Origin: Spiribacter sp. 2438 | Lineage (GTDB): Bacteria > Pseudomonadota > Gammaproteobacteria > Nitrococcales > Nitrococcaceae | Length of the DNA stretch: 64,000 nt | Direction: 5' to 3' | Assembly (NCBI RefSeq): GCF_009676705.1 | Contig: NZ_CP046046.1 | Coordinates: forward strand, 1 to 64,000 | Shown: positions 1 through 32,594 of the stretch, piece after piece | Position numbering within the stretch: position 1 is the first letter of the stretch | Layout of the letters: every line of letters begins with the position of its first letter | Made by a program: the position numbers and the translations under genes | The notes under the pieces: generated by a model | The model's input: the letters and a program-made list of their open reading frames with translations, nothing else | What the model was told of the DNA's origin: nothing | The model's database searches: none

Positions 1-1335
1 TTGGTCGATCGATTCTGGAAAGGCTGTTTGCAACGCCTGGAACGGGAAATGCCGGACCAGCAGCTCAACACCTGGATTCGGCCCCTGCAGGCTGAAGAAT
101 CGGATCATCAGCTGCGGCTCTATGCCCCCAACCGCTTTGTTTGCGACTGGGTCCGCGAACATTTTTACGACCGCATTCAGGAACTGCTGGCAACCCAGCA
201 TCCCGACGGCCCGCCAACACTGGCCCTGGAAGTGGGCGGTAGCGGCCCCGCGCCGGTGGCACCGGATACGCCCACGGCGACCGTGGTCAGCGGCACACCC
301 GCCGCCACGCCAAACCGCAGCAACCTCAACCGCGACTTCACCTTCGAAACCTTTGTGGAAGGCAAGTCCAATCAACTGGCAAGGGCGGCCAGCCTCCAGG
401 TGGTCGAAAACCCGGGGACCGCTTACAACCCGCTGTTCATCTATGGAGGCGTCGGCCTGGGCAAGACCCACTTGATGCACGCCATCGGCAATGACCTGCT
501 GGCCCGCCGGCCGGACGCCCGGGTGCTCTATCTGCACTCAGAGCGGTTCGTCGCGGACATGATTCGGGCGTTGCAACACAACGCCATCAACGAGTTCAAG
601 CGTCATTACCGGGGCGTAGACGCGCTGCTGATCGATGACATCCAGTTTTTCGCCCGCAAGGAACGCTCCCAGGAAGAATTCTTCCACACCTTCAACGCGT
701 TGCTGGAGGGCCACCAGCAGGTGGTGATGAGTTGTGACCGTTATCCGAAGGAGGTCAACGGCCTGGAAGAGCGGCTGAAATCCCGTTTCGGCTGGGGGCT
801 GACCATTGCCATTGAACCGCCGGAGCTGGAAACCCGGGTCGCCATCCTGATGAGCAAGGCCGAGCAGGCGGGCACGCCGCTGCCGCCGGAAGTGGCATTT
901 TTCATCGCCAAGCGGATCCGCTCCAATATCCGCGAGCTGGAAGGGGCCCTCAAGCGGGTGGTGGCCAACGCCCATTTCACCGGTTCGGCCATCACCGTGG
1001 ATTTTGCCAAGGGGGCGCTGCGTGACCTGCTGGCACTGCAGGACAAGCTGGTGACGGTGGAAAACATTCAGAAGACCGTGGCGGAGTACTACAAAATCCG
1101 TCTGTCCGATCTGCTCTCCAAGCGCCGCAGCCGTTCCATTGCCCGTCCCCGGCAATTGGCCATGGCGCTTGCCAAAGAGCTCACCAGCCACAGCCTGCCG
1201 GAGATCGGTGAAGCTTTTGGTGGTCGAGACCACACCACCGTCATGCACGCCTGTCGCAAAGTTCGGGAATTACGGGAGGCGGACGGCCGGCTGGACGAGG
1301 ATTATCACAACCTGTCCAGAACCCTGTCATCATGA
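1..1335 (+). CDS. dnaA: Chromosomal replication initiator DnaA
   Basis: DnaA binds DnaA boxes at oriC, oligomerises with ATP and opens the duplex. All four domains are visible in 444 residues: the N-terminal DnaB-contact domain (about 1-75, with the family motif TWIRPLQAE), a Pro/Ala/Thr-rich linker (about 80-108), the AAA+ core with Walker A GGVGLGKT at 149-156 and Walker B LLIDDIQ at 209-215, and the C-terminal helix-turn-helix with the signature [12 protein letters not shown] near 407-418. The start is TTG at base 1; the protein aligns with DnaA from its first residues, so nothing is missing, but the ribosome site lies outside the window. dnaN, recF and gyrB follow in the usual order. Confidence 0.98.
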
Positions 1336-1550: not shown

Positions 1551-2651
1551 ATGCAGTTCCAAATCGATCGGGATGAGCTCCTCCGTCCACTCCAGTCAGT
1601 GATTGGCGTGGTTGAGCGCCGCCAGACCCTGCCCGTGCTCTCCAATGTTCTGTTAAGCCTGGAAGACGGCAAGCTGTCCCTGACCGCTACCGATCTGGAA
1701 GTCGAGCTCCGGGCAGAGGTTGAACTGGATTCCGAGGAAACGGGCAGCGTCACCGTACCGGCGCGGAAATTGATGGACATTATCCGAAATCTTCCCGAAG
1801 ACAGTCGGGTCGCCATCGCGCGGGAAGCCGAGCGAGTTTCCGTCAAGGCCGGCCGGAGCCGTTTTACACTGACCACCCTCCCGCCGGATGATTTCCCGAC
1901 CGTTGACGCGGTTGAAGCCAGCCATCGGGTCTCGCTGCCCCAGGCACAATTGCGCTGGCTTATCGAAAAGAGTCATTTCGCCATGGCGCTGCAGGACGTC
2001 CGCTATTATCTCAATGGCCTCCTGCTGGAACTGGACCCTCAGCGGTTGCGAGCAGTGGCCACCGACGGTCACCGCCTGGCCATGAGCGAACTTGTTCCCA
2101 CCCTGGATATTGAAGCCCCGACCCAAGTGATTGTCCCCCGTAAGGGTGTCCAGGAAATGCTCCGGCTGCTCGACAACAGCGAGAGCGAGGTGGAGCTGGT
2201 GCTCGGCGCGGGCCATGTCCAGCTGTCTCTCCCGGATATCCGCTTCACCTCCAAGCTGATCGACGGCCGTTTCCCGGATTACCAGCGGGTTATTCCTGCC
2301 GAGGACGGCCCCTGCGCGGTGATTGATCGGGAAACCCTGCGGAAGGCGCTGGTCCGGGCGTCCATCCTTTCCAATGAAAAATACCGGGGGGTTCGTTTCG
2401 GATTTGACGCCGATCAGCTTCAGATTCAGTCCAACAACCCGGAACAGGAAGAGGCCGTTGAGGAAGTCCCGGCGGCCTTTGATGGTGAGTCTGTCGAAAT
2501 TGGCTTCAATGCCAGTTACATGATGGATGCCCTGGCCGCTATCGATGACGCGACGGTCCACATTTATGTCCGGGATGGCAGCAGTAGCGCGCTGGTGTTG
2601 GGTGAAAAGAGTCGCGACGCCCGCTATGTCGTGATGCCGATGCGGCTGTAG
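1551..2651 (+). CDS. dnaN: DNA polymerase III beta sliding clamp
   Basis: The beta clamp forms a ring around DNA that tethers polymerase III and other replication and repair proteins. The 366-residue product has the family length, starts MQFQIDRDELLRPLQSVIGVVERR and ends in the conserved VMPMRL that lines the peptide-binding pocket. Three repeated clamp domains of about 120 residues are expected and the length fits. The ATG at 1551 gives the standard N-terminus; only a weak purine-rich stretch (AGAAAGATCGG) lies upstream. recF starts 2 bases after the stop, so the two are probably cotranscribed. Confidence 0.98.
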   Translation: MQFQIDRDELLRPLQSVIGVVERRQTLPVLSNVLLSLEDGKLSLTATDLEVELRAEVELDSEETGSVTVPARKLMDIIRNLPEDSRVAIAREAERVSVKAGRSRFTLTTLPPDDFPTVDAVEASHRVSLPQAQLRWLIEKSHFAMALQDVRYYLNGLLLELDPQRLRAVATDGHRLAMSELVPTLDIEAPTQVIVPRKGVQEMLRLLDNSESEVELVLGAGHVQLSLPDIRFTSKLIDGRFPDYQRVIPAEDGPCAVIDRETLRKALVRASILSNEKYRGVRFGFDADQLQIQSNNPEQEEAVEEVPAAFDGESVEIGFNASYMMDALAAIDDATVHIYVRDGSSSALVLGEKSRDARYVVMPMRL

Positions 2652-2653
2652 CC

Positions 2654-3739
2654 ATGAACCCCTGCCACGAGGAGGACGGGCTTCACCGCCTGTCGTTGCA
2701 GGGATTTCGGCATCTCCAGGACGACACCCTCGATCTGGATCCGCGTGCCAACGTCATACAGGGGGCCAACGCCGCCGGGAAGACCAGTTTTCTGGAAAGC
2801 ATTCATTTCCTGGCCCGCGCCCGTAGCTTCATCACCCACCGCACGGCGCGAATGGTGGCCAAGGGCGCTGAGCGGGTCCTTGTTCATGGGCAGATTCGTG
2901 CTGCGAGGACTGAGCACCGGTTGGGGGTGCAATACCAACAGGGCCAGACTCGGGCGCGCCTGGATGGACGCGACGTGCAGGCGTTATCGGAATCCGCGGG
3001 CCTGTTGCCCATTCAGGTCATCAACACCGAGGGGCAACGACTGCTGACCGATGGCCCGGCTGGGCGCCGGGCTTTTCTCAATTGGGGTGTGTTCCACGTG
3101 GAACACACCTATCGGGATGACTGGCGGCGTTATCAAAAAGCATTGCGGCAACGGAACGCCGCCCTTCGGGCCGGGGACCGGCGATTGGTTGCGGCCTGGG
3201 AGCCGGACATGGTGGCGGCCGCCGAAGCCGTGGATCGACGTCGCCAGGCGTTTCTCGAGACGCTTATGCCCCGTGCCATGGCTATCGCCCTCGAATGGTT
3301 ACCGGCGAGTCAGCCGGGGTGGCAATTCCGGCGGGGCTGGAAAGCCGACCACCCTTTGGCTGAAGTGCTTGCGCAGGGTCGTGAGCAGGAGTTGGCTCAG
3401 GGTTTTGCGTTGTACGGCCCTCAGCGTGCGGATCTGCGGCTCACGGCAAATGGAACCGAAGCGGAGGCCAGGCTGAGCCGCGGTCAGCAGAAGCTGTTGG
3501 TGGCAGCTTTGCGCATTGCGCTGGTGGAGCAATGGGCAGCCCGCGGGACTTACCGTCCCCTGGTGCTGGTAGATGACTTGCCAGCCGAGCTTGATGCCGA
3601 GCATCGTCAGTTCCTGTTGAACTCGTTGCTGGCCTCCGGGGCCCAGGTGTTTCTGACGACCATTGAGTCCGAGCAGTTGCCTGGGGTGGGATCAGCCCGT
3701 TGGTTCCACGTGGAACATGGGTGTGTCCGGCGAGACTGA
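2654..3739 (+). CDS. recF: DNA replication and repair protein RecF
   Basis: RecF is an SMC-like ATPase that, with RecO and RecR, loads RecA at single-strand gaps. The 361-residue product has Walker A GANAAGKT at 37-44, the ABC signature region LSRGQQKLL in the C-terminal third and the Walker B VLVDDLPAELD after it. The start follows the dnaN stop by 2 bases. The gene carries two parS-like palindromes; both are read in the same phase and encode the same peptide, FHVEH, at about residues 147-151 and 351-355. Confidence 0.97.
   Translation: MNPCHEEDGLHRLSLQGFRHLQDDTLDLDPRANVIQGANAAGKTSFLESIHFLARARSFITHRTARMVAKGAERVLVHGQIRAARTEHRLGVQYQQGQTRARLDGRDVQALSESAGLLPIQVINTEGQRLLTDGPAGRRAFLNWGVFHVEHTYRDDWRRYQKALRQRNAALRAGDRRLVAAWEPDMVAAAEAVDRRRQAFLETLMPRAMAIALEWLPASQPGWQFRRGWKADHPLAEVLAQGREQELAQGFALYGPQRADLRLTANGTEAEARLSRGQQKLLVAALRIALVEQWAARGTYRPLVLVDDLPAELDAEHRQFLLNSLLASGAQVFLTTIESEQLPGVGSARWFHVEHGCVRRD
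3086..3109. other. parS-type centromere site 1 (inside recF)
   Basis: A perfect 24-base palindrome centred between 3097 and 3098. Its 16-base core at 3090-3105, TGTTCCACGTGGAACA, matches the chromosomal parS site bound by ParB/Spo0J in pseudomonads and related bacteria. Its position about 3 kb from dnaA is where parS sites cluster. ParB, ParA and CTP-dependent clamp loading are known for the family; binding here is inferred. Confidence 0.85.
3702..3717. other. parS-type centromere site 2 (end of recF)
   Basis: GGTTCCACGTGGAACA differs from the first site's core only in the first base. It lies 612 bases downstream of site 1, just before the recF stop and about 60 bases ahead of the gyrB -10 box. 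Single-base changes at the outer position are common among functional parS sites. Confidence 0.75.
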
Positions 3740-3803: not shown

Positions 3804-6994
<3,191 letters not shown>

Positions 6995-31667: not shown

Positions 31668-32594
31668 ATGCCGATTGAACACCTACGCATTGCCACCCGC
31701 CGCAGCGCGCTGGCGCTCTGGCAGGCCAACCACGTGGCGGACCGCCTGCGGGCGCTGCACCCGGGCCTGTCCGTCGAACTGGTGGGCATGTCCACCCGGG
31801 GCGATGAAATCACGGACCGCCCGCTGATGGCGGTGGGTGGCAAAGCGCTTTTCGTCAAGGCCCTGGAAGAGGGCATGCTGGAGGGCCGGGCGGAAATTGC
31901 CGTGCACTCCATGAAGGATGTGCCCGCGGTGGTGCCCGCGGCTTTTCAGTTGCCGGTCATCCTCGACCGGGAAGATCCCTGTGATGCCTTGGTCTCCAAC
32001 CGCTTCAGCGACGTCGACGAGTTGCCGGAGGGGGCCCGTGTGGGCACCGCCAGTCTGCGCCGCGAGGCCCAGCTGCGGGCCCGGCGGCCGGATCTGGTGG
32101 TGGAATCCCTGCGGGGCAACGTCCAGACCCGTCTGTCGCGACTGGATGCCGATGATTTCCAGGCGATCATTCTCGCGGCCTCCGGCCTGCGCCGGCTGGG
32201 GCTCGGAGAGCGTATTACCCGGGTGATGACACCGGATGAGAGTCTGCCGGCGGTGGGCCAGGGCGCCCTGGGGATTGAGTGCCGCTCCGATGATGACGAG
32301 GTGGCGGCGTTGATCGCCGGACTCGATGACCCGGACACCCATGACCGGGTCGCCGCGGAGCGGGCGGTCAACGCGCGCCTGGAAGGCAGCTGCCACGTGC
32401 CGCTGGCTGCCTATGCCGAGCTGACCGACGATGTAGGAATGTACCTGCGTGCGCTGGTGGCGAGCCGTGACGGCACCCGAGTGATTCGCGCCGAGGGACG
32501 GGCTGGCCGGCGAGAAGGGCCGTCCCTGGGGCATCGACTGGCCGGTGAGATGCTGGATCAGGGGGCCGGCGACATTCTCGCCGAGGTCCGGTGA
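31668..32594 (+). CDS. hemC: Porphobilinogen deaminase (hydroxymethylbilane synthase)
   Basis: Joins four porphobilinogen units into hydroxymethylbilane for heme. The 308-residue product has RIATRRSALALWQA, the catalytic loop MSTRGDEI, AVHSMKDVPA with the catalytic Asp region, and Cys242 in EGSCHVPLAAYA that attaches the dipyrromethane cofactor. The ATG at 31668 gives the canonical start; the ribosome site is weak. It overlaps hemD by GTGA. Confidence 0.96.
   Translation: MPIEHLRIATRRSALALWQANHVADRLRALHPGLSVELVGMSTRGDEITDRPLMAVGGKALFVKALEEGMLEGRAEIAVHSMKDVPAVVPAAFQLPVILDREDPCDALVSNRFSDVDELPEGARVGTASLRREAQLRARRPDLVVESLRGNVQTRLSRLDADDFQAIILAASGLRRLGLGERITRVMTPDESLPAVGQGALGIECRSDDDEVAALIAGLDDPDTHDRVAAERAVNARLEGSCHVPLAAYAELTDDVGMYLRALVASRDGTRVIRAEGRAGRREGPSLGHRLAGEMLDQGAGDILAEVR

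Follow-up and report, generated by a model that had tools for sequence, protein, structure and literature searches.

Two parS-type sites inside recF of Spiribacter sp. 2438 and their conserved position in related recF genes

The recF sites of Spiribacter sp. 2438 and parS of Pseudomonas aeruginosa

Chromosomal parS sites of the Bacillus subtilis type belong to the same 16-bp palindrome class as the sites described here and are bound by Spo0J/ParB, and we know of no concentration of them in recF. The Noc-binding site (NBS) is a related palindrome that is bound by a paralogue of ParB. In P. aeruginosa, two of the sites, parS1 and parS2, are located within recF (PMC5521831; PMC3909081), parS1-4 are bound in vivo (PMC5098823), and both specific binding and spreading of ParB have been reported (PMC5098823; PMC4368675). 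Any single one of parS1-4 is enough for segregation (PMC4368675). An excess of ParB lowers the expression of genes around parS1-4, whereas the same report describes, for parB-null and parS-null mutants, a rise only of genes near the intergenic sites parS3 and parS4 and not beside the intragenic parS1 and parS2 (PMC5521831). A parS site within recF is, through P. aeruginosa parS1 and parS2, a known element. In the literature searched, which was available in part, parS in recF is described only for P. aeruginosa, with no wider report (including PMC7022226; the Livny 2007 survey may cover part of the subject), and neither class-wide conservation nor an imprint on RecF was found there. The conserved recF address and the imprint on RecF look under-described.

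The window analysed here, a stretch of 64,000 nucleotides of Spiribacter sp. 2438, contains the gene order dnaA-dnaN-recF-gyrB around the sites, with all four genes on the + strand: dnaA (1..1335; TIGR00362 604.9 bits, cut-off 343.9), dnaN (1551..2651; TIGR00663 345.4 bits, cut-off 137.65), recF (2654..3739; TIGR00611 314.7 bits, cut-off 172) and gyrB (3813..6248; TIGR01059 1014 bits, cut-off 882.4). The start codon of dnaA is TTG, at window position 1. Both sites, listed without a strand, are hosted by recF. Site 1 (3090..3105), the perfect 16-mer TGTTCCACGTGGAACA, is the middle part of a perfect palindrome of 24 bp (3086-3109) and encodes FHVEH as residues 147-151 of RecF. Site 2 (3702..3717), GGTTCCACGTGGAACA, starts 612 bp after site 1, departs from TGTTCCACGTGGAACA by one outer mismatch and encodes the same peptide as residues 351-355. 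The first-pass annotation had reported these two palindromes and their common peptide, and its coordinates and sequences proved exact; the CCACGTGG octamers that it had noted in the rest of the window, at 31730 and 61074, indeed lack the TT/AA flanks.

Its statement that the core equals the ParB site of pseudomonads also holds, since the core is that of P. aeruginosa parS2 and parS3 (PMC4368675). P. aeruginosa parS1 and parS2 are alike in belonging to the same 16-mer class and in being located in recF about 4 kb from oriC (PMC3909081; PMC5521831), and the positions within recF appear to be the same in both organisms. The ends of the two P. aeruginosa sites differ, parS1 ending in ...AACC, which would encode FHVEP in this frame, and parS2 in ...AACA (PMC4368675); many of the recF genes compared below show these same endings at site 1 and site 2, respectively. 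In Spiribacter sp. 2438 the two recF sites are the full set at up to two mismatches, whereas P. aeruginosa has parS3 and parS4 as further strong sites outside recF, and six weak ones (PMC4368675).

Across the whole genome (one contig of 1,900,931 bases) the two recF sites are the only matches with up to two mismatches, and a reversed control pattern gave 0 matches. No equally good copies are scattered elsewhere, and the placement of the centromere within 4 kb of dnaA in the first-pass annotation agrees with this result: there are two sites in 1.90 Mb, both less than 4 kb from the start of dnaA, by which the origin was placed. A search of the window with up to three mismatches returned 2 matches against 0.15 expected by shuffling, with at least two matches in 3 of 100 shuffles, a figure that is weak on its own because three mismatches were allowed; the strong statistics for the sites are the genome-wide uniqueness and the comparative counts.

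A cognate chromosomal partition system is encoded as well. A single protein of the genome matches the ParB model TIGR00180 (205 bits, cut-off 58.45); its gene (G000:1892768-1893628, G000 being this genome) carries the three Pfam ParB domains ParB_N, HTH_ParB and ParB_C. The adjoining parA-type gene (G000:1893625-1894422) encodes a protein that matches Pfam AAA_31 (PF13614) with 207 bits and scores 123.7 with the NCBIfam ParA model, under its cut-off of 180, so that it is called ParA on the basis of the AAA_31 match and its position beside parB. With rsmG/gidB (TIGR00138) next to them, the order of the neighbourhood is rsmG, parA-type ATPase, parB, a short frame and ATP synthase subunit a. The start of parB is about 7.3 kb short of the end of the contig, which on a circular chromosome would put the gene across dnaA from the sites. 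A 1244-aa frame with two separate matches to SMC_N makes an SMC partner likely. The Noc model TIGR04285 gives this ParB, the sole TIGR00180 protein, 221 bits, under the Noc cut-off of 315, so that no cognate Noc protein was found by this model; the ParB domain model is passed, and the core of the sites is of the ParB type. We are highly confident that the two recF palindromes serve Spiribacter sp. 2438 as its chromosomal parS sites, this being the best explanation of the observations as a whole; they are very probably functional, and all of them lie inside recF.

Conservation of the sites and constraint on the RecF sequence

Each of the 23 genomes of the family has one or two sites with up to one mismatch. 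In 19 of them a single contig carries both sites, at a distance of 612-627 bp; in one (G015) the two sites are on different contigs, and three (G005, G011 and G019) show one site at up to one mismatch. Where recF was read (16 of the 23 genomes, window included), both 14-mers are present in 16/16, and in G005 the second site has the AAA (FHVK) ending. The class was represented by 184 sampled genomes, presumed to be Gammaproteobacteria; recF scored over the cut-off in 151, ParB was found in 176, and an exact KGTTYCACGTGRAACM site, a search pattern picked after seeing an earlier result, in 145. The 161 recF genes that were read comprise those of 146 class-sample genomes, of 14 further family members and of the window itself, while the partial matches in G098, G162 and G166 and one other recF over the cut-off stayed outside this set. 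A homologue search over genome contigs with RecF of the window as query returned no loci.

Both data sets were available for 147 class genomes. Of their 246 exact genome-wide sites, 207 fall within recF and 8 others in the fetched DNA just downstream of it; 74 of these genomes have exactly two exact sites, both in recF. Two 14-mer sites are present in 116 of the 161 recF genes, one in 29 and none in 16, with the 14-mer intact at the homologous position in 134/161 for site 1 and 125/161 for site 2. Of the 121 families read, 99 have an intact 14-mer at site 1, 93 have one at site 2 and 108 have one at either position or at both. In all 116 pairs the distance between the sites is divisible by three; it ranges from 606 to 669 bp, apart from one pair at 465 bp. 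The B. subtilis-type TGTTTCACGTGAAACA form was found in recF of two genomes (G131 and G091). Outside the class, the 20 recF genes obtained from 53 genomes are free of sites, and none encodes FHV[E/K] at site 1. One outgroup RecF (L303) has FHVES at the C-terminal position with the palindrome absent, which indicates that the FHVE peptide can arise without the palindrome.

FHV[E/K] is the only peptide that a site read in this frame can encode, and what is telling is therefore how often that peptide is found with the palindrome broken. Among the rows with FHV[EK], the palindrome TTYCACGTGRAA is kept in 134/138 at site 1 and 126/132 at site 2, against 9.07 and 9.11 expected from the codon usage of each gene. 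The palindrome is broken in the remaining 4/138 and 6/132, all ten of them one base off the 14-mer, and these few single-base departures do not overturn the DNA constraint on RecF that the first-pass annotation had proposed. Codon columns were compared in 122 rows (one per family, plus the window), using the 68 columns with a degenerate amino acid conserved in at least 75%. The H, V and E codons of site 1 and the H and V codons of site 2 occupy ranks 1-5 of the 68, a single codon accounting for 0.92-0.98, compared with 0.71 for the next column and a median of 0.36 for the other columns. The E column of site 2 falls outside the 68, since it is split between E and K. For the F codon, where TTC and TTT both fit the site, the share of one codon is 0.54 (site 1) and 0.53 (site 2). 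The constraint of the sites on the RecF sequence is well supported.

The frame is nearly invariant, 260 of the 261 14-mers in recF being in that of FHV[E/K]. In recF of G135 (L135), a 14-mer from nucleotide 433 onward is read in another frame, as GSTWN; it lies a few codons away from the usual site 1, where the peptide is lost. The TTY and RAA ends are associated in the raw tables (Fisher p 3e-8 for site 1, 5e-4 for site 2) and with one row per family (p 2e-6 and 0.045); the cross-site tables are significant too (p 1e-3 and 1e-5). For the F codon at residue 59, taken as a control, the association is weaker (p 0.08 and 0.14). Palindromic covariation of TTY and RAA within a site was considered and set aside, being unsupported on the RecF tree, with 5 supported independent pairs and no significant sign test.

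Loss of recF or ParB and the weighing of explanations

No recF over the cut-off was found in 33/184 class genomes, a count of genomes and not of independent losses, in which some cases may be assembly gaps. Loci from 15 of these genomes were chosen for holding a site, position between dnaN and gyrB not being a criterion. In the 12 of the 15 in which dnaN and gyrB were both seen, the space separating the two genes holds the one or two sites and measures 58-265 bp between alignments, or 870 bp in one genome; in two of the 15, gyrB alone was seen beside the sites. The last of the 15, G113 (L169:4084-5213), has three parS-type sites inside mnmG (gidA) and rsmG (gidB). G122 (L172:1286-1774), also without recF over the cut-off, has twelve TGTTTCACGTGAAACC sites in a tandem array with a 43-bp period upstream of gyrB. 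By exact patterns, 18 of the 33 recF-less genomes have no site, and ParB was found in 13 of these 18.

Enterobacterales are described as being without chromosomal par genes (PMC3909081). Of 80 recF loci from this order one is partial, leaving 79 scored; site 1 is intact in 0/79 and site 2 in 1/79, while site 1 reads CFHNE in 62/79, with both histidine codons occurring. A ParB search in 19 Enterobacterales genomes found none in 11 and matches in 8 at E 4e-6 to 1e-51, five of them over the cut-off, plasmid and phage genes not being told apart in these counts. At a smaller scale, G177 has no ParB match and broken sites, and its genus-mate G047 has ParB and both sites. Both comparisons point to an evolutionary dependence of the sites on ParB. 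Counter-cases are G135 and G136, which keep the sites with no ParB match found, possibly because the assemblies are 90-95% complete, as well as 8 genomes with ParB and without recF sites.

The retention of F-H-N-E at site 1 of Enterobacterales after loss of the palindrome is what could be expected if FHVEH were a functional motif of RecF and the palindrome a mere by-product of codon choice, and RecF itself may by now have a use for some of these residues. However, this account leaves the frozen synonymous codons (134/138 vs 9.07 expected) unaccounted for, as well as the identical peptide at two unrelated places of RecF, its absence at site 1 from the 20 outgroup proteins, the persistence of sites in the 12 recF-less genomes and the GSTWN-encoding 14-mer of G135, so that we regard it as highly improbable. 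Marginally less improbable, yet still very unlikely, is that the sites serve mainly the control of dnaN-recF-gyrB transcription by ParB and not segregation. The repression of genes around parS1-4 by excess ParB in P. aeruginosa would fit such a role (PMC5521831), but the same report describes no rise beside the intragenic sites in parB-null and parS-null mutants (PMC5521831), and one of parS1-4 suffices for segregation (PMC4368675).

A role of the palindromes in RNA structure, or as target of another CACGTG-binding protein, is more improbable again. As RNA, the 24-bp perfect palindrome of site 1 (3086-3109) forms a strong hairpin that folds better than shuffled sequences (z -3.45, 1/200 shuffles equally good), whereas the folding of site 2 is not unusual (z -0.92, 36/200) and no terminator-like element is located on either site, with one elsewhere vs 1.2 expected; the terminator and RNA-fold checks give no support to an RNA role common to both sites. 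Such a role would also have to accommodate the survival of the sites outside recF in 12 genomes, and their disappearance from Enterobacterales and from G177, in which no ParB was found, when G047 with ParB keeps both. Chance occurrence of the two sites is the least credible explanation, its probability being close to nil: the shuffles of the window that reached two matches at three mismatches (3/100) would allow it, but not the recurrence of the 14-mer in 108 of the 121 families read, in which it occupies one or the other of these codon positions, or both.

The reading as parS sites suggests how they could act in Spiribacter sp. 2438, by analogy with other species and with general knowledge of ParABS systems. 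Each 16-mer would be recognised and bound by a dimer of ParB, whose gene is some 7.3 kb off across dnaA; the dimer would load there as a CTP-dependent clamp and then spread over the flanking DNA. The ParB-parS complex would be moved by ParA and would probably load SMC, so that the origin region may segregate first. As both sites are inside recF, selection for ParB binding would act on codons, fixing those of H, V and E (or K), and hence FHV[E/K], at two unrelated places of RecF. More broadly, it seems likely that recF doubles as an ancestral chromosomal centromere in Gammaproteobacteria, that the FHV[E/K] patches are an imprint of parS and not protein motifs, and that this centromere can outlive recF and decays with the loss of ParB; it may also help to explain the cohesion of dnaN-recF-gyrB at the origin. 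A DNA element would then override codon choice, and in part the choice of amino acid, in a conserved repair protein of about a hundred families, and FHVEH in RecF should not be assumed at once to be a protein motif. For many genomes of the class, reading recF at the two positions would serve as a rule for finding the centromere. The genomes that have lost recF and kept sites, and those that have lost par and show decayed sites, offer natural experiments on what a centromere needs, and the location of both sites in one gene makes a clean two-site silent recoding feasible.

Variants and relocation of the sites

The 16 recF genes (of 161) without an intact 14-mer comprise 7 with one- or two-base variants, one without ParB match (G177) and 8 that have lost both sites in the presence of ParB, which indicates that the location in recF is not obligatory. 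These 8 are the counter-cases mentioned above (G065, G067, G071, G082, G154, G163, G190 and G194), and three of them (G071, G082 and G154) have sites elsewhere in the genome. G067 and G190 (L289 and L290; family f47) encode a divergent ParB (E 2e-35 and 5e-34) and have no site of the searched pattern.

Among the variants, the same altered core is found at both sites in G044 (CACATG), G170 (CACGTA), G184 (CATGTG) and G106 (CATATG, which is still a palindrome and gives FHMK), while in G036, a genus-mate of G170, neither site departs from the standard core. Each site of G025 is the reverse complement of the other, G027 keeps one site only, G051 has different cores at the two sites, and site 1 and site 2 differ in G030 and G072 as well. 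A common variant core at both sites would be expected from a shared binding protein, although the pattern is not universal (G030, G051 and G072). No clear change in specificity emerged from an alignment of ParB helix-turn-helix segments, which came from 27 genomes and covered those with variant sites.

Second sites can also be found close to recF. Another site within 300 bp downstream of the stop codon is present for 7/28 recF genes with one site vs 3/116 with two sites (Fisher p 4e-4; the open-ended row G103 was left out). With one row per family and count, the only correction for kinship applied, the difference is 5/23 vs 1/85 (p 0.0015).
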